In this document: positions 6,333 to 14,843 of the stretch, piece after piece
How the letters are laid out: each line of letters opens with the position of its first letter
Position numbering within the stretch: position 1 is the first letter of the stretch
NCBI RefSeq assembly: GCF_000186265.1
Contig: NC_014934.1
Coordinates: 4,402,001-4,466,000 of the forward strand
Source of the DNA: Cellulophaga algicola DSM 14237
GTDB taxonomy: Bacteria; Bacteroidota; Bacteroidia; Flavobacteriales; Flavobacteriaceae
DNA: 64,000 nt
Direction: 5' to 3'
Made by a program: the position numbers and the translations under genes
The notes under the pieces: generated by a model
The model's database searches: none
What the model was told of the DNA's origin: nothing
Seen by the model: the letters and a program-made list of their open reading frames with translations, nothing else

Positions 6333-7361
6333 TTAAAGCGCTTTAAAAGAGGAATCCCGTACAATTAAATTTGTCTTAATCTCAATAGTTTTAGATACCA
6401 ATTCTTTATTAGGAAGGTTAATTTCTTCTATTAAAGACTTAGCTGCAATTCGACCAATACGTTCTCCTGGTTGGTCTACAGTAGAAAGCTCTGGTTGTAT
6501 TATCGTTGAATTTATTGAATTACTAAATCCTACCACCGCAACTTCTTCTGGGATTTTTACATTAAATTTATGCAATGCTTTAATAGCGCCAATAGCGGCA
6601 TTGTCTGTAATTGCAAAAATAGCATCTGGTCTTACTTTCTGACTCAATAAAACATTCGTAAGTCGCTTGCCATTATTTAATGAAATATCTTCCGTACTCT
6701 GTACTAATTTTGGATTGAAAGGAATACCATACGTTTTTAAAGCTCTTTTATAGCCTTCAAAGCGTTTTTCAGAATTGAAGGAATTCTCTGTTTCTTTAAG
6801 GATGGCAATTCTTTTTTTTCCTAAACCAATTAAATGTTCTACAGCATTGAAAGCCGCTTCTTCCTCATTTATTACAATCTGAGTACAAGGTACTTTTTCT
6901 GAGACTTTATCAAACAATACTAAGGGAATTCGCTGTAAGGTTTCCAATACCTGATGGATAGATTTTGTTTTTTTAGCTAAAGATAATAAAATACCATCTG
7001 CACCAAATTGCAACATGGTTTGCAACATTTCAGTTTGTTTATTCTCTTCATTGTTAGATTCTGAAATTATCACCCGATATCCATTGAGTTCGGCCTCTTC
7101 CAATATCCCTTTGAGTAGGGTAGACGTGTACAAGTGAGAAATATTAGGTACAATCACTCCTATAATATTCGTTCTATGAGTTCTAAAACCTTTAGCAAAC
7201 AAATTAGGCACATAATTTAATTTTTCAGCCAATTCTTTTACCCTACTAATGGTAAGATCACTGATATCTGGATGATTATTTAAGGCTCTTGACACTGTTG
7301 AAACAGAGATACTTAACTTCCTTGCTAGATCTTTTAAGGTAACCGTAGTCTTCTTTTCCAT
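6333..7361 (-). CDS. LacI-family transcriptional regulator
   Basis: This 342-residue protein begins with a LacI helix-turn-helix (VTLKDLARKLSISVSTVSRALNN, about residues 7-29), then the hinge YVPNLFAKGFRT (about 51-62) and a periplasmic-binding-like effector domain starting NIIGVIVPNISH. It is transcribed away from the receptor/hydrolase/symporter/kinase genes and sits next to them, the usual position of a local sugar regulator. A classic LacI-type palindrome (GCAAACGTTTGC) lies in the shared gap, so it probably represses the locus, and perhaps itself, until a sugar or glycoside binds. The effector identity is inferred from the neighbours only. Confidence 0.92.
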   Translation of the reverse strand: MEKKTTVTLKDLARKLSISVSTVSRALNNHPDISDLTISRVKELAEKLNYVPNLFAKGFRTHRTNIIGVIVPNISHLYTSTLLKGILEEAELNGYRVIISESNNEENKQTEMLQTMLQFGADGILLSLAKKTKSIHQVLETLQRIPLVLFDKVSEKVPCTQIVINEEEAAFNAVEHLIGLGKKRIAILKETENSFNSEKRFEGYKRALKTYGIPFNPKLVQSTEDISLNNGKRLTNVLLSQKVRPDAIFAITDNAAIGAIKALHKFNVKIPEEVAVVGFSNSINSTIIQPELSTVDQPGERIGRIAAKSLIEEINLPNKELVSKTIEIKTNLIVRDSSFKAL

Positions 7362-7433
7362 GTCCTCTCTTTTTTATATTTTAAGAGTAATTTATGACTC
7401 CCCCAATAAATTTAACACATTGCAATCGTTCCC

Positions 7434-7445
7434 GCAAACGTTTGC
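7434..7445. promoter_or_regulatory. LacI-family operator palindrome
   Basis: GCAAACGTTTGC is a perfect 12-bp palindrome with the central CG typical of LacI/PurR-family operators, 72 bp from the regulator start and 105 bp from the receptor start. A degenerate half-similar copy (GCAATCGTT) lies just to the left at 7422-7430. Candidate -7 sequence around 7458-7466 lies just downstream toward the receptor gene, so binding could block RNA polymerase. Confidence 0.75.
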
Positions 7446-7550
7446 ATAAGAAATTTGTAAATTTTGCACTTAAAAATTATAATATCAATATAAATTTAAC
7501 CTGTATTTAAATAATTAACTCAAAAACTTTTATTAACTAAACGACAAATT

Positions 7551-10145
7551 ATGAAGAATTTAATTTTTGCATTCGTTTGCATTCTTGGATTTTCGAGCGT
7601 ATCCGCACAAACAGAAATTAAAGGTGTGGTCAATGATGATTCAGGAATACCCGTTGCAGGTGCCAACATTATTATCAAAGGCACAACTGCAGGAACTATT
7701 TCCGATTTTGACGGAAATTACAGTTTAAACTCAGGTTTAACTGGAACACAAACTATTCGTGTTACCTACATTGGGTATGGAGTTGTTGAAAAACAAGTAA
7801 CATTAAATGGAGGAACAGTACAAGTAGACATTGTAATGATAGAAAGTGGAGAACAATTAGATGAAATTTTATTGACAGCGACATCTACTACAAGATCGCA
7901 AAAAGAATCTCCTTTATCTGTTACTTCTTTAGGTGCTAAACAATTAGCTAAAGCAAACACAAGCAGTCAAGCTGATATTTTAATCGGTGTTCCTGGAATT
8001 ACTGCTGAAGGTGGTGGTGGTGAAGTTGCCTCTAACGTTTTTGTGAGAGGACTCCCTTCTGGAGGTCAATATCAGTATACGCCATTACAAATTGATGGTA
8101 TGCCGGTGTTAAGCACATTCGGACTTAACTCTTCTGCACATGATGTTTATTTTAGAAATGATATCGGTATTAAAAACTTAGAATTTGTACGTGGGGGTTC
8201 TTCTATATTATACGGAGTAGGATCTGTCGCTGGTATTATTAACTACAACAGCATCACAGGTGGTGTAAATCAGAAAACAACAATTCGTACAGAAGTGGCT
8301 ACAAACTCTCGCTACAAGGCAGATTTTGTGACTAGTGGCCCTTTAGGTGGCGAAGATTCTAATACCTTTTACGCGCTTTCTGGTTTCTATCGTTATGATG
8401 ACGGACCTATTAAAACAGGATTGCCTACAGAAGGGTTTCAATTAAGAGGGAACCTTAAACAGGTGACTAAAAATGGTTCTATTACTTTTTCTGGTCAATT
8501 TATAGACGATAAAGTACAGTTCTTTTTACCTTATCCTTTAGAAGGTGGTTCTCGTGACCGTCCTACTGGTAATGATGGAAATACGATTTATACCTTACAA
8601 ACAGCCGCTGCATCAAACATTTCGTACCGAACACCAGATGGGGTGTATGAATCTCCTATTGAAGATGGAGTTGCTACAAAAGGCGGATTTTTCCTAACGC
8701 ATTTCAAGCATAATTTTTCTGATAATTTAAAAATGGATGCCAAGTTGCGCTACTCAAAATATGCTCACCAATTTAATTTATTTTTAGATGGTAGTGGTGT
8801 TAGCGGTGCTAATGTTGTAGAAACTCAAACAGAATATTTAGCCGCAAGAGGTTTAACCGGTGGAGATTTCACCTATTTAAACGGACAGCCTTTAGCTGCT
8901 AATGCTTTATTATTTGAAAACAGAATTTTAGACAGAACCAGACCTTTGTCTGAGACCATGGCAGATATTAAATTAACAAGAACTGCTGGCGATCATACCA
9001 TCACTGGAGGTACTTTTATTTCTAGATCTTCCGCAGGAGATTTTAATGTCATCACAAATTATCTTGGAGAATATAACAACAGACCAGATTTAGTAGAACT
9101 TTCTGGATACTCTATTAATGGGGTTACCAATAGAGGTACTGCGTATACCAACAGAAATATTTCTAGTAATAAAATTGCTTTGTTCTTGGCAGATGAAATT
9201 AAATTGGACAGATGGAATTTGGATTTTGGTGTACGTTATGAACGTGCTTCTGGAGATATTGAATCTGAAGGATCAACATCTTATGCTGTAGATAATACTG
9301 GAATTGCTAATTTAGACAATGTTACTTGGGGTAATGGCAGCTGGACAAGAGGGCATGTTTCTGCAGATGATTTTGCAGTTGCTTTAGCTGGTTTATATAA
9401 AGTAAGCGACGCTTTTAGCGCGTATGGTAACTTCTCTAGAGGTTATTTCTTTCCTGAATTAAGAGGTACAAAATTTGATGGTTTCGGTAATCCTAGTAGT
9501 TATGATACTGAAAAAATCATACAAGGTGAAGCAGGTGTTAAATATGGTAAAAATAACTTCTCAGGTACTGGCGCATTCTATGCTATAAATCTTAACGACC
9601 GTAGAGTAGTGAACTTTATCAATGCGCCTGGTGGCGGTTTTATTGAAGACGTAGATACACAAGACACAAAGACTTTTGGTTTTGAAGGCACCTACAACTG
9701 GAGATTTGTTCAAGATTTTAGTTTAAACGGTTCGCTAACTATACAAAGTCATGAAATCACTAAATCTACTGCAAATCCACAATTTGAAGGGAATAAAATT
9801 TCTAGACAGCCAAACTTTATAAATGCTATTGGTATCGATTATGACAATGCGGTTTTAGATGCTGGTTTTAATTACAACTATACCGGTAAAAAATATACAA
9901 ATGATTCCAATACAATTGAGTTAGATGCTATTAGTATTGCCAACTTAAATCTAGGATATACCTTCAAAACAGACGAAGATGGAGGTAGTGTTAGACTTGG
10001 TGCACAAGTATACAACCTATTTAATTCTGAAGGAATTACAGAAGGTTCTCCTCGATTGAATAATACGCAAACAGAAGAAGCATATTTTGTAGGTAGACCA
10101 ATTTTACCAACACGTGTCTTCTTAAACGCGACATTTACTTTTTAA
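7551..10145 (+). CDS. TonB-dependent outer-membrane receptor
   Basis: This 864-residue protein has a signal peptide (residues 1-19, ending SVSAQ), a CarboxypepD-regulatory-like beta-sandwich (about 22-100: KGVVNDDSGIPVAGANIII, SDFDGNYSL), a plug domain (about 115-235, with VFVRGLP and QIDGMPV) and a C-terminal 22-strand barrel that ends in phenylalanine (FLNATFTF). It imports a ligand across the outer membrane using TonB energy. No SusD partner is present, which fits a small ligand rather than a long polysaccharide. It is the first gene of the locus with the GH63 hydrolase, symporter and glycerate kinase, so a glycosylglycerate ligand is my inference. A siderophore or vitamin ligand cannot be excluded from the protein alone. 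A hairpin follows the gene and may lower downstream transcription. Confidence 0.92.
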   Translation: MKNLIFAFVCILGFSSVSAQTEIKGVVNDDSGIPVAGANIIIKGTTAGTISDFDGNYSLNSGLTGTQTIRVTYIGYGVVEKQVTLNGGTVQVDIVMIESGEQLDEILLTATSTTRSQKESPLSVTSLGAKQLAKANTSSQADILIGVPGITAEGGGGEVASNVFVRGLPSGGQYQYTPLQIDGMPVLSTFGLNSSAHDVYFRNDIGIKNLEFVRGGSSILYGVGSVAGIINYNSITGGVNQKTTIRTEVATNSRYKADFVTSGPLGGEDSNTFYALSGFYRYDDGPIKTGLPTEGFQLRGNLKQVTKNGSITFSGQFIDDKVQFFLPYPLEGGSRDRPTGNDGNTIYTLQTAAASNISYRTPDGVYESPIEDGVATKGGFFLTHFKHNFSDNLKMDAKLRYSKYAHQFNLFLDGSGVSGANVVETQTEYLAARGLTGGDFTYLNGQPLAANALLFENRILDRTRPLSETMADIKLTRTAGDHTITGGTFISRSSAGDFNVITNYLGEYNNRPDLVELSGYSINGVTNRGTAYTNRNISSNKIALFLADEIKLDRWNLDFGVRYERASGDIESEGSTSYAVDNTGIANLDNVTWGNGSWTRGHVSADDFAVALAGLYKVSDAFSAYGNFSRGYFFPELRGTKFDGFGNPSSYDTEKIIQGEAGVKYGKNNFSGTGAFYAINLNDRRVVNFINAPGGGFIEDVDTQDTKTFGFEGTYNWRFVQDFSLNGSLTIQSHEITKSTANPQFEGNKISRQPNFINAIGIDYDNAVLDAGFNYNYTGKKYTNDSNTIELDAISIANLNLGYTFKTDEDGGSVRLGAQVYNLFNSEGITEGSPRLNNTQTEEAYFVGRPILPTRVFLNATFTF

Positions 10146-10166
10146 GTTAAATATTTAGTATAGACC

Positions 10167-10205
10167 AAACACATTGGTTCCTGAGAGCTTCCAATGTGTT
10201 TTAAT
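10167..10205 (+). terminator. Hairpin terminator or attenuator between receptor and hydrolase genes
   Basis: An 11-bp stem (10167-10177 AAACACATTGG with 10191-10201) and 13-nt loop, followed by a T-rich run (TTAATTTTTTT). It lies 22 bp after the receptor stop and ends about 10 bp before the hydrolase start, so it may set higher receptor than enzyme expression within one operon. Confidence 0.75.
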
Positions 10206-10215
10206 TTTTTTATTT

Positions 10216-11520
10216 ATGAAAGAACATTTAATCAAACAGGCCATAAGCATATTAGAAGAAAACTTCCAAGAAGGTGGTTTTACGATACCTTGTAAAGGCT
10301 TATATCCTTTTCAATGGAAGTGGGATAGTGGTTTTATTGCTATCGGGCAAGCACATTATGATATGGAGAAGGCAAAAACTGAAATTGCGACCTTATTGGA
10401 TGCGCAATGGCAAAATGGATTTATTCCACATATCATTTTTCATAATGAGAGTGACACCTACTTTCCTGGGGCAAACGTACACCGCTCAGATTTGAGTCCG
10501 CTTGCTTCAAAAAAATACAAATCTACAGGAATGACTCAACCTCCAGTTACTGGTTTTGTTCTTGACGAAATGTATCGAATTGCAGAAGATAAAGAAGATA
10601 TTTTGAACTATATCGCTACTCAAATAGATAACGTATATGACAATCACGCGTATTTCTATACGCATAGAGATGTGAACAATGAAGGACTTGTTTTTATCTA
10701 TCACAACTGGGAATCAGGCACTGATAATTCTCCTATTTGGGATGATATTTGGAAAACTATGAATCCGCCAGACTACACCTTTGAACGCAGGGATACAACT
10801 CATGTAGATGCGTCACAACGACCAACAAAGCGCGAATATGATCATTACTTAAATATTATAGAAATTGCAAAAGAGTATCATTATGACGATGCTAAAATTG
10901 CAGAACATTCGCCCTTCCTTGTTTTAGATCCTTTATTTAATGCCATGCTTATAAAGTCTAACGAATCGCTTATTCATTTATACCGATTATTAGGAGATAC
11001 AGGAAAAGTAGTGCAATTAGAAAAATGGCAAGAAAAGAGTATCAAAGGCTTTAATGAAAAATTATGGGATGATAAACTGAATGCTTACGTACATTATGAT
11101 TTGAGAAAAGATGCTCCTATCCGTTTTGTTACTTCTTCTTCCTTTTCTGCTTTATATGGAGGAATTCCTAATCAAGAGAGAGCAGACCTTTTAATACAGA
11201 CTATGATGGGAAAATTTGGCGATGAAGAATTATATTTATGTGCTTCTTTTGATCCACAGAGTGATCGTTTTGATCCCAAAAAATACTGGAGAGGTCCCGT
11301 TTGGATAAATATGAATTGGATACTCTACAATGGTTTAAAAAGATATGGTTTTAATGATATTGCACAGCGTGTAAAAGAAGATTCTATAGCATTGATAGAA
11401 AAGAATGGCTTTTTTGAGTATTTTAATCCTATTAAAAAAGTTGGAGATACCGAAAAGATCGGTTATGGAGGTAACAACTTTTCATGGAGTGCTGCCTTGC
11501 TCATCGATATGCTTAAATAA
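10216..11520 (+). CDS. GH63-type mannosylglycerate/glucosylglycerate hydrolase
   Basis: This 434-residue (alpha/alpha)6-barrel protein matches the size of bacterial mannosylglycerate and glucosylglycerate hydrolases of family GH63. Near the N-terminus YPFQWKWDSGF (30-40) lines the active site. D170 in SGTDNSPIWDD is the expected general acid and E401 in FFEYFNP the expected base; NNFSWSAAL follows (420-428). The spacing of the two residues is close to that I recall for the Thermus enzyme (D182/E419). It would split 2-O-alpha-mannosyl- or glucosylglycerate into sugar and glycerate. No signal peptide is visible, so it acts in the cytoplasm after uptake. The neighbouring glycerate kinase strongly supports a glycerate-releasing reaction. 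I chose the ATG at 10216; an upstream start at 10174 would lie inside the hairpin. Confidence 0.82.
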   Translation: MKEHLIKQAISILEENFQEGGFTIPCKGLYPFQWKWDSGFIAIGQAHYDMEKAKTEIATLLDAQWQNGFIPHIIFHNESDTYFPGANVHRSDLSPLASKKYKSTGMTQPPVTGFVLDEMYRIAEDKEDILNYIATQIDNVYDNHAYFYTHRDVNNEGLVFIYHNWESGTDNSPIWDDIWKTMNPPDYTFERRDTTHVDASQRPTKREYDHYLNIIEIAKEYHYDDAKIAEHSPFLVLDPLFNAMLIKSNESLIHLYRLLGDTGKVVQLEKWQEKSIKGFNEKLWDDKLNAYVHYDLRKDAPIRFVTSSSFSALYGGIPNQERADLLIQTMMGKFGDEELYLCASFDPQSDRFDPKKYWRGPVWINMNWILYNGLKRYGFNDIAQRVKEDSIALIEKNGFFEYFNPIKKVGDTEKIGYGGNNFSWSAALLIDMLK

Positions 11521-11537
11521 ATAAAAACCAACCAACT

Positions 11538-13142
11538 ATGAACTATCTAGATTATATTATTATAATAGTATATCTCTTAGCTTTTTTAGCTATGGGCTTC
11601 TTTTTTAAAGAGAATAAAACTTCCGGAGATTACTTTTTAGGCGGTAAATCTATGGGGTGGTTTCCTTTGAGTTTATCCACAATGGCAACACAATTATCAG
11701 CAGTTAGTTTTATTTCTGCTCCCGCTTTTGTAGGTTTAAAACAGGGGGGAGGTATGCAATGGCTTACCTATGAATTTGGGGTGCCATTGGCTATGGCCTT
11801 TTTATTAATCGTTCTCTTACCTACCTTATATAAATCTGGTATAGTCAGTGTTTACGAGTACTTAGAAAAACGTTTTGATTCTTCTTCCAGACTCTTAATT
11901 AGTGTTGTTTTTCAGATTAGTAGGTCGGTAGCCACTGGAGTTATGGTCTATGCCATGGCGCTGATATTACAGGCGACCATCCAATTAGATTTTGTTGTTT
12001 CTGTGCTGTTAATTGGTATTATTACCATGATCTATTCGTTTCAAGGCGGAATGAAAGCGGTCATTTGGGGCGATGTGATTCAGATGACCATTCTCTTTTT
12101 CGGAATCATTATTTGTTTGTTTTACGGTTTTAGTGAGTTGGGTGGCGTAGATAATTTCTTAACGAAAGTAGATCCAGACCGTATTCAAGCAGTAGATTTT
12201 AGTAAATGGGGTTTTAATAATGCCGATGGGAATGATGAATTTGGTTTTTGGCCTATGGTCTTAGGAGGTTTCTTTTTATATGCCTCTTACTACGGAACAG
12301 ACCAAACGCAATCCCAACGTTTATTGTCTTCTAAAGATATGCCTTCGTTAAAAAAGTTACTATTAGCCAATGGTTTACTGCGGTTCCCTTTTACCTTAAC
12401 CTATTGTATTATGGGATTGGTGCTTGGAACACTTTTAGTGCAAGATGTTAGTTATCAAGAAATGATTGATACTGTTTATAATGCAAATATTGGCTCTTTA
12501 GAAGGTAAAAGGGCAGATTTAATGGTCCCTGTATTTATTATAAAATACTTGCCTAACGGAGTTATTGGTATTTTAATAGTCGCTATTATGTCTGCAGCAA
12601 TGTCTAGCTTAAGTTCTACTGTAAATTCACTTTCTGCGGTGACTATGGAAGATATTGTAAAGCGTTTTAAACCCAATATTGAAGACAAAAAATACATCAG
12701 CTACTCTAGATACTTATCTATTTTTTGGGGCTTAGTATGTTTATTCTTTGCTTTTTTTGCGGGGAGTATTGAGGGTACCGTAATTGAGGTTATTAATAAA
12801 ATTAGTTCTGTTTTTTACGGACCTATACTGGCGGTATTTATTTTGGCAATTGCTACTAAAAAAACACATGCTTTAGGGGCTAATATTGGGATCATATCTG
12901 GTGTCCTTTTTAATATGTACTTATGGCTGTATGTTCCCCAAATATTCTGGTTCTGGTGGAATGCATTAGGTTGTTTAGTTACAATTATCGTTGCATTAAG
13001 CGTTAGTTATATTGTGAAGGCTAAACCAAAAGAAGGGCTAGAAGTGGTCTACGATCCTAGTAGAAAAGAACTCGCTATCTTAGTCGTTTATTTTTGCGTA
13101 ATTGTATTAATAAGCACCTCCTTACCTGCTATTTTAAGTTAA
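11538..13142 (+). CDS. Sodium:solute symporter (SSS family)
   Basis: This 534-residue membrane protein has about 13-14 hydrophobic segments. It carries the SSS hallmarks: the N-terminal DYFLGGKSMGWFPLSLSTMA segment, a sodium-site region AAMSSLSSTVNSLSAVTMEDI (about residues 354-374), and TDQTQSQRLLSSKDM in the middle. SSS proteins import sugars, organic acids or vitamins with sodium across the inner membrane. It lies 17 bp after the hydrolase gene and 10 bp before the glycerate kinase gene, so it most likely carries the intact glycosylglycerate from the periplasm to the cytoplasm. Sodium coupling fits a marine host. The substrate is inferred from context. Confidence 0.9.
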   Translation: MNYLDYIIIIVYLLAFLAMGFFFKENKTSGDYFLGGKSMGWFPLSLSTMATQLSAVSFISAPAFVGLKQGGGMQWLTYEFGVPLAMAFLLIVLLPTLYKSGIVSVYEYLEKRFDSSSRLLISVVFQISRSVATGVMVYAMALILQATIQLDFVVSVLLIGIITMIYSFQGGMKAVIWGDVIQMTILFFGIIICLFYGFSELGGVDNFLTKVDPDRIQAVDFSKWGFNNADGNDEFGFWPMVLGGFFLYASYYGTDQTQSQRLLSSKDMPSLKKLLLANGLLRFPFTLTYCIMGLVLGTLLVQDVSYQEMIDTVYNANIGSLEGKRADLMVPVFIIKYLPNGVIGILIVAIMSAAMSSLSSTVNSLSAVTMEDIVKRFKPNIEDKKYISYSRYLSIFWGLVCLFFAFFAGSIEGTVIEVINKISSVFYGPILAVFILAIATKKTHALGANIGIISGVLFNMYLWLYVPQIFWFWWNALGCLVTIIVALSVSYIVKAKPKEGLEVVYDPSRKELAILVVYFCVIVLISTSLPAILS

Positions 13143-13152
13143 AATACATTCG

Positions 13153-14277
13153 ATGAAATTTGTAATTGCACCCGATAAATTTAAAGGCTCTCTAACTGGT
13201 ATTGAATTTTGCGATGCTGTAGAAGAGGGACTCCTAAAAGTATTTCCGCAAGCGGATATTATAAAAATTCCTTTAGCCGATGGCGGCGATGGTACTGTTG
13301 ATGTTATTAAAAATTACATTCACGGTACCATGGTTACCGTATCCGTAAATAATCCGCATTTTAAACAGGTAGAAGCCTCGTATTTATATTCTGATGAAAC
13401 CAAAACTGCCTTTATAGAAATGGCAGAAGCTTCTGGCTTAAAATTATTAGATGCTGATGATTTTGATTGTATGAATGCCAGTAGCTATGGTACAGGAGAA
13501 CTAATTGCAGATTGTGTGAGTAGGGGAGCAGAACACTTAATTTTAGGTATTGGAGGTAGCGCTACTAATGATGCTGGAATAGGCATGTTAACCGCTTTAG
13601 GCTTTGAGTTTTTTGATGTCAATAAGCAACTACTGAAACCCATTGGTGCTAATTTGATCTATATTGACCATATTGGTACCGATAAAGTAGCTAAAAATTT
13701 AAAGAAATTAAAGGTAAAGGTTGCGTGCGATGTTACTAATCCACTGTACGGAAAAGATGGAGCTGCCTATATTTATGCTGCCCAGAAAGGAGCAAACGAG
13801 AAGCAGATAGTAGCGCTAGATCTTGGACTGCAACAGTTTGCCCGTGTGGTTAATTCTATGTATGCTATAGAGGTACAATCCATTCAAGGTGGTGGTGCCG
13901 CGGGAGGAATGGGCGTAGGGGTTTCTGTATTTTTAAACGGCACACTTGCATCAGGCATCGAGCTAATAAAAGAATTGGCAGATTTTGATACTCAAATAAA
14001 AGATGCTGATTGGATTATTACGGGAGAGGGGAAACTGGACCTTCAATCATTATCAGGAAAAACAATACAAGGGGTATTGACCGCTGCGCATAAAGAAAAA
14101 ATAAAAGTTGCCGCTTTGTGCGGAGTTGTAGATTTATCTATAGCAGCACAAGAAGCATTGGGCATCACCTATACTACAGCTATCTTAAAAGAAATTACCA
14201 CTATAGAAGAAGCTATGGCAACGAGTACTGATAATTTGGTTTTTGCGGCTTATAATTTTGCCCGTTGTATTAGTTAA
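13153..14277 (+). CDS. Glycerate kinase (GlxK/GarK family)
   Basis: This 374-residue protein is the full length of the GlxK-type glycerate kinase family. It begins KFVIAPDKFKGSLTG, then has IPLADGGDGTVDV (about residues 39-51), GIGGSATNDAGIGML (about 133-147), a glycine-rich GGGAAGGMGVGV (about 246-257) and ITGEGKLDLQSLSGK (about 292-306), all family blocks. It phosphorylates D-glycerate to phosphoglycerate for glycolysis. It starts 10 bp after the symporter gene, in an operon with the glycerate-glycoside hydrolase, and therefore supplies the route for the glycerate half of the substrate. The sugar half would go to general metabolism. Confidence 0.93.
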   Translation: MKFVIAPDKFKGSLTGIEFCDAVEEGLLKVFPQADIIKIPLADGGDGTVDVIKNYIHGTMVTVSVNNPHFKQVEASYLYSDETKTAFIEMAEASGLKLLDADDFDCMNASSYGTGELIADCVSRGAEHLILGIGGSATNDAGIGMLTALGFEFFDVNKQLLKPIGANLIYIDHIGTDKVAKNLKKLKVKVACDVTNPLYGKDGAAYIYAAQKGANEKQIVALDLGLQQFARVVNSMYAIEVQSIQGGGAAGGMGVGVSVFLNGTLASGIELIKELADFDTQIKDADWIITGEGKLDLQSLSGKTIQGVLTAAHKEKIKVAALCGVVDLSIAAQEALGITYTTAILKEITTIEEAMATSTDNLVFAAYNFARCIS

Positions 14278-14366: not shown

Positions 14367-14843
14367 ATGACAGAAAGAGATGAGTTTTTCATGAAAAGAG
14401 CTATAGCACTTGCCGAAGAAGGTATGAATGCTAATGCTGGCGGACCTTTTGGAGCCGTAGTGGTAAAAGACGACGAAATTATCGCAGAAGGATATAATAG
14501 AGTTACGTCTACCAATGATCCTACAGCACATGCTGAGGTCGTGGCTATTCGTGAAGCCTGTAAAAAACTAAATAATTTTGAACTTACAGATTGTACTATA
14601 TATACGTCCTGTGAACCATGCCCTATGTGCTTAGGCGCTATTTACTGGACCAGGCCTAAGATGGTTTATTTTGGTTGTAACCGTGAAGATGCTGCTGCCA
14701 TACAATTTGATGATCAGTTTATTTATGATGAGATTGATAAAGATATTGACGGGCGTCAAATTAAGTTTGTGCAATTAGCACGTAAAGATGCCTTAGAAGT
14801 ATTTAATGCTTGGGATGCTAAGCAAGATAAAAAAGAATACTAA
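14367..14843 (+). CDS. guaD: Guanine deaminase (cytidine deaminase fold)
   Basis: This 158-residue zinc deaminase has the zinc and catalytic motif HAE (H55, E57) and PCPMC (C85, C88). The segments NDPTAHAEV, YTSCEPCPMCLGAIYW and FDDQFIYDEIDK, and the C-terminus ending KKEY, match Bacillus GuaD as I recall it; in that family the C-terminal tail reaches over the partner's active site. It converts guanine to xanthine in purine salvage. A tRNA adenosine deaminase (TadA) is the main alternative, but the tail and length favour GuaD. It has its own promoter and is followed by a strong terminator, so it is monocistronic. Confidence 0.88.
   Translation: MTERDEFFMKRAIALAEEGMNANAGGPFGAVVVKDDEIIAEGYNRVTSTNDPTAHAEVVAIREACKKLNNFELTDCTIYTSCEPCPMCLGAIYWTRPKMVYFGCNREDAAAIQFDDQFIYDEIDKDIDGRQIKFVQLARKDALEVFNAWDAKQDKKEY

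Follow-up and report, generated by a model that had tools for sequence, protein, structure and literature searches.

Regulated uptake and cleavage of mannosylglycerate (MG) is known from Escherichia coli, whose mngRAB genes combine import by a phosphotransferase system with a GH38 enzyme. Closer to the case considered here, genes for the degradation of digeneaside were reportedly described in Zobellia galactanivorans by Barbeyron et al. in 2016, as cited in PMC8072126. Homologues of these genes occur in Maribacter dokdonensis 62-1 (PMC8072126), and digeneaside, which is MG (PMC8490865), is counted among the possible substrates of polysaccharide utilization loci (PULs) of North Sea Flavobacteriia (PMC6298971). 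Two hydrolases of solved structure act on such compounds: mannosylglycerate hydrolase (MgH) of Thermus thermophilus (PDB 2z07, 4wva-c) and glucosylglycerate hydrolase (GgH) of M. hassiacum (5ohc and others). Here, we describe a cassette of five genes at positions 6333–14277 of the window, a stretch of 64,000 nucleotides (4402001–4466000) from the Cellulophaga algicola DSM 14237 genome, which forms one contig of 4,888,353 bases. As proposed, it would resemble mngRAB in purpose—regulated uptake and cleavage of MG—but would use a TonB receptor, a sodium symporter, and an MgH-type enzyme. It shares bacterial family and proposed compound with the Zobellia and Maribacter genes, and sequence family and active-site residues with both solved hydrolases; however, GgH serves the solute of its own producer, whereas the window gene sits in an uptake cassette, and the paper on the North Sea loci, likewise predicted, takes SusC/SusD as its basis, whereas this cassette has no SusD.

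We put the probability that the cell uses this cassette to feed on an alpha-glycosyl-2-glycerate, MG being the likeliest, at about 0.87. The TonB receptor would bring the compound across the outer membrane and the symporter would carry the intact acid across the inner one; the cytoplasmic hydrolase, acting as an inverting enzyme with D170 as its acid and E401 as its base, would then release mannose and D-glycerate from it, after which the kinase would pass the glycerate into glycolysis as phosphoglycerate, 2-phosphoglycerate being the product expected of this class of glycerate kinase. For the mannose, the host would rely on a kinase and a phosphomannose isomerase that are not linked to the cassette, and some relatives have the isomerase inside it. 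The LacI-type protein would repress the outward genes through an operator at 7422–7445 until an inducer binds. We regard the locus as real, probably functional, and ordinary in kind.

Because digeneaside degradation has already been assigned in Zobellia and Maribacter, and digeneaside listed for North Sea PULs, the idea is not new. The first-pass annotation of this DNA knew of no described TonB-linked locus for such a compound; we likewise found no experimental work on a flavobacterial locus of this type in the literature searched, from which most subscription papers and every supplement were absent, but digeneaside degradation by marine flavobacteria had been predicted. Nothing relevant was found in PMC5507952 or PMC8269262. 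The same cassette is found in five Zobellia loci (L015, L018, L024, L027, and L029; L numbers denote loci and G numbers sampled genomes) and also in Maribacter loci, and the published digeneaside genes are likely this cassette. As far as our searches go, what goes beyond the earlier predictions is the family-wide linkage, the operator, the linked isomerases, and the replacement of the kinase.

Conserved linkage of hydrolase and glycerate kinase

All five open reading frames (ORFs) named by the first-pass annotation lie side by side as it placed them, and Pfam and NCBIfam agree on the family of each. A LacI-family regulator (6333–7361, minus strand) diverges from four plus-strand genes: a TonB-dependent receptor (7551–10145), a glycosylglycerate hydrolase of the GH63-like MgH/GgH type (10216–11520), a sodium:solute symporter (11538–13142), and a glycerate kinase (13153–14277), the last scoring above both cut-offs (437 bits for PF02595, 413 bits for TIGR00045). 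A search of genome contigs confirmed 104 relatives, from which the best 80, chosen by similarity, were kept. Among these, the regulator was in its expected place in 65, the receptor in 65, the symporter in 78, and the kinase in 74; where both flanks were covered, all five genes were in their expected places in 55 of 66 loci, an arrangement that is therefore not due to chance. The hydrolase of C. baltica is 92% identical to the window's.

Since the 80 loci had been selected by similarity, we also used an even sample of 149 Flavobacteriaceae genomes, one per genus. A hydrolase of the window's type (ORF of 436–460 aa, at least 279 bits) was present in 20 of them, including the window's own genome. 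The linkage between hydrolase and glycerate kinase, named beforehand as a point on which the proposal should be judged, is conserved: a PF02595 kinase lies within 2.5 kb of the hydrolase in 18 of the 20 genomes, and on another contig in the other two. PF02595 kinases also occur in 42 of the 129 sampled genomes without this hydrolase. Among the matches listed, no linked kinase accompanied any of 24 longer MGH1-like rows of at least 148 bits (7 of 525–563 aa and 17 of 639–695 aa), this count being confined to rows above that score.

The hydrolase and its active site

The hydrolase scores 311 bits against PF22422 (MGH1-like; curated cut-off 27), and the GH63 C-terminal model is also exceeded (34.9 versus 22.4 bits). 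The ATG at 10216 is the likeliest start, from which residues are numbered here, and inspection by eye revealed no signal peptide. Its closest solved relative is the Thermus MgH (E 7.4e-95; 167 of 409 aligned residues identical, or 41%), followed by the M. hassiacum GgH (E about 1e-59; 140 of 407). In the latter, Asp182 and Glu419 are catalytic, and 11 more residues are strictly conserved between GgH and characterised MgH enzymes (PMC6608630). All 13 of these catalytic and substrate residues are present in the alignment with the window's protein, D170 and E401 falling at D182 and E419 and so bearing out the catalytic pair proposed earlier. Across 80 aligned hydrolases (the window's and those of 79 of the 80 related loci), the 13 residues and W165 are invariant except in row L071, where the ORF picked is short. 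Judged on these matches, the protein is a hydrolase of the MG/glucosylglycerate (GG) type, and the match to a solved MgH is enough to tell its fold. The glycerate part appears to matter, because the M. hassiacum enzyme leaves glucosylglycerol and glucosylglycolate uncleaved; it hydrolyses both GG and MG, with GG preferred (PMC6608630), and the residues alone therefore leave the sugar unsettled.

The role of the M. hassiacum enzyme (PMC6608630) also invites the explanation that the hydrolase recycles a compatible solute of the bacterium itself, its place beside transporters being secondary. Against this stands the joint occurrence of hydrolase, symporter, and kinase across many genera. Nor did three models of synthesis families give any match above cut-off in the host genome: mannosyl-3-phosphoglycerate synthase (TIGR02460) had no match, one-step mannosylglycerate synthase lying outside that search, and the models for GpgS (NF010496) and mannosyl-3-phosphoglycerate phosphatase (TIGR02461) were matched below cut-off only, as in 13 and 7 of 14 control genomes, respectively. 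We rejected recycling as the main explanation and consider it very improbable.

As a separate observation, the two further MGH1-like groups in the Flavobacteriaceae sample (ORFs of 525–563 and 639–695 aa), which have no linked glycerate kinase, may act on other substrates.

Replacement of cassette genes

A quick hydrolase tree, in which L074 has no row, implies a minimum of 8 changes of receptor class (66 rows; classes cut at 58% identity) and of 6 changes of symporter class (78 rows; 65% identity), counts that carry no shuffled control. A quick tree of kinases comprised 74 from cassettes (73 loci plus the window's own) and a selection of 20 from the 45 sampled kinases lying away from such a hydrolase; among these 20 is L115, whose genome carries the hydrolase on a different contig. 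On this tree, the label of cassette or non-cassette changes 7 times, with at least 6 changes forced by strong branches. Within Cellulophaga itself, the window and C. baltica have one symporter–kinase pair in common, and four other loci have a different pair (symporter 52–55% and kinase 37–40% identical to the window's) adjoining a hydrolase that is 79–83% identical. We read this pattern as one in which the function is kept while the gene gets replaced; the kinase tree does not separate gain from loss.

These replacements bear on whether the hydrolase might instead cleave another small alpha-glycoside, such as floridoside, glucosylglycerol, or a disaccharide, with the kinase using glycerate from elsewhere. 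PF22422 and the models for trehalase and GH63 each cover a wide range of proteins, and the kinase at 13153–14277 is the only PF02595 member found in the host genome and so could serve general metabolism. Yet the glycerate-contact residues are kept, and linkage to a kinase is seen with this hydrolase type specifically and persists where the kinase has been exchanged for one of another lineage; we therefore judge another substrate class to be very unlikely.

Mannose or glucose

Which sugar the hydrolase releases is suggested by genes that adjoin the kinase in a minority of loci. Of the 74 loci in which a kinase is linked, 10 have a gene of mannose-6-phosphate isomerase type directly behind that kinase and on the same strand. 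These genes are of two unrelated kinds belonging to different Pfam families. A class I isomerase lies 12–73 bp behind the kinase in L037, L038, L057, and L061 (Lutibacter twice, Aquimarina, and Spongiivirga), all four exceeding the PF20511 cut-off and both of those tested exceeding that of TIGR00218 (manA); a cupin-type PF01050 protein of 171 aa lies 24–58 bp behind it in L031, L032, L036, L041, L072, and L076, with the PF01050 cut-off exceeded in both proteins tested (L031 and L072). With these proteins as tblastn queries, neither the 80 loci nor the window yielded another copy. In the sample of 149 genomes, a class I isomerase adjoins 2 of the 18 hydrolase-linked kinases (G034 and G091); judged by ORF size and place, the order there is receptor, hydrolase, symporter, kinase, isomerase, with an extra ORF of 203 aa between hydrolase and symporter in G034. 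The host genome has one class I phosphomannose isomerase, outside the window's locus, which says little because 134 of the 149 sampled genomes have one. Given the linked isomerases in 10 of 74 loci, mannose is probably the sugar released, which would favour MG (digeneaside) over GG.

The same pathway could have GG from cyanobacteria or other bacteria as its main natural substrate. Prochlorococcus NATL2A is described as having GG among its major compatible solutes, and genes for GG synthesis are reported from offshore SAR11 (PMC11631117, PMC12636525); the preference of the M. hassiacum enzyme for GG (PMC6608630) and the isolation of the host from a diatom point the same way. On the other side are the linked mannose-6-phosphate isomerases, drawn from two families, and the position of GgH Gln434, which is Phe in 80 of 80 hydrolases (F422 in the window), as it is in the Thermus MgH (F408). 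On balance, GG as the main substrate seems unlikely.

Several observations nevertheless weigh against a cassette for MG as we have described it. The receptor is missing in 11 of the 69 loci with covered upstream sequence, and the hydrolase falls short of the NCBIfam equivalog for glucosylglycerate hydrolase (NF047898; 317.6 versus 550 bits). No isomerase is linked in 64 of the 74 loci or in the window's own, and the cupin-type protein scores below the NCBIfam cut-off for the bifunctional GMP/PMI enzyme (33 versus 373 bits). In L023, a ROK sugar kinase stands behind the glycerate kinase, best matched to glucokinase though below all NCBIfam cut-offs, and this too would suit GG. An isomerase also adjoins 2 of the 45 kinases not beside the hydrolase (G017 and G099), neither genome having a hydrolase of the window's type among the matches listed. 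As the kinase–isomerase pair thus occurs without the hydrolase, it is not specific to the cassette, and the case for mannose is a little weaker.

Such a pairing of glycerate kinase and class I isomerase, without this hydrolase, is seen in two sampled genomes at L117:5884–8014 and L118:6399–8555; the mannose and glycerate there may be set free by a different enzyme.

Transport across both membranes

The receptor (7551–10145), with a signal peptide recognised by eye, consists of CarbopepD_reg_2, plug, and barrel domains (PF13715, PF07715, PF00593). By model it is not SusC, reaching 91 bits against TIGR04056 where the cut-off is 368. The claim that it has no SusD partner agrees with an inspection of ORFs, run without a SusD model, in which the cassette held no further ORF of at least 100 aa. 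There is thus no adjacent SusC/SusD pair, and the cassette does not qualify as a PUL of the SusCD type.

The symporter belongs to the SSF family (PF00474 and TIGR00813), as had been proposed. Its closest solved relatives are the sodium-dependent multivitamin transporter, the sodium/iodide cotransporter, and monocarboxylate transporter 1, followed by a bacterial sodium:solute symporter (5nv9) and then by glucose carriers. The multivitamin, iodide, and monocarboxylate carriers transport anions, a kinship that would fit an acidic sugar without being proof of one.

A predicted operator, local and often doubled

The regulator (PF00356 and PF00532, both over cut-off) was described in the first-pass annotation as having an operator, and the predicted site, which has no strand, occupies 7422–7445: a perfect palindrome, GCAAACGTTTGC, at 7434–7445, with a degenerate copy, GCAATCGTTCCC, immediately before it at 7422–7433. 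The former is the sole perfect match in the 4.89 Mb host genome. Across 66 regulator-upstream regions, the window's own included, this 12-mer occurs in 51, compared with none in 100 rounds of shuffles, and the core AAACGTTT occurs in 58 (shuffle mean 2.0, maximum 6). In 50 of these regions a half-site stands at 12-bp spacing, as it does in the window, and in 26 there are two cores at that spacing, the window's first copy being degenerate. In 1.41 Mb of related loci, there are 52 perfect 12-mers, 51 of them within regulator-upstream regions and one elsewhere in L025. Being unique, recurrent, and paired, these sites indicate an operator that is local, conserved, and often doubled; overlapping LacI-type operators at 12-bp spacing may allow alternative or cooperative binding.

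A wider LacI regulon was considered and dropped: the genome holds 8 sites with one mismatch, compared with 17 for a reversed control pattern, and since they do not rise above the control, there is no signal of a regulon. A scan for sigma-70-type promoters, with 15 sites against a shuffle mean of 29.4, was left unused.

Source of the compound

The source of C. algicola IC166T was an Antarctic sea-ice diatom, Melosira (PMC3072087). Digeneaside is typical of the Ceramiales, and its contribution to osmotic acclimation is minor at best (PMC8523428). Of the original proposal, import of and feeding on a glycosylglycerate remains the best reading, with the kinase linkage conserved; the red-algal source is not established, because the host comes from a diatom. 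It is conceivable, though we lean against it, that a SusD-free TonB route spread through the family, made up of receptor, sodium symporter, MgH-type hydrolase, an interchangeable glycerate kinase, and in some cases an isomerase, lets many marine Flavobacteriaceae eat MG as an everyday dissolved nutrient, and that its presence in a diatom epiphyte implies a source of MG other than red algae. If our interpretation holds, the hydrolase beside a glycerate kinase would be a compact genetic marker for MG consumers in the sea, and the predicted digeneaside pathway could be tested down to its regulator, its operator, and the fate of the sugar.

Neighbouring genes and insertions

Behind the kinase in the window lies a deaminase-like gene (14367–14843; 101 bits, TadA cut-off 150), which, among the covered DNA of the 80 related loci, has a match only in that of C. 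baltica (L003). Beyond the cassette, the commonest flanking family among the 40 clusters listed was found in 11 loci, every one from the Flagellimonas/Allomuricauda group. Within the cassette, a GNAT acetyltransferase family is present in 22 loci (PF13302 in L008:10337–10930), its median position being between hydrolase and symporter, with some copies lying behind the kinase instead. Finally, a gene resembling S66 LD-carboxypeptidases (PF02016 and PF17676 in L062) stands between symporter and kinase in L062, L070, L078, L079, and L080, all from the Allomuricauda/Flagellimonas group.

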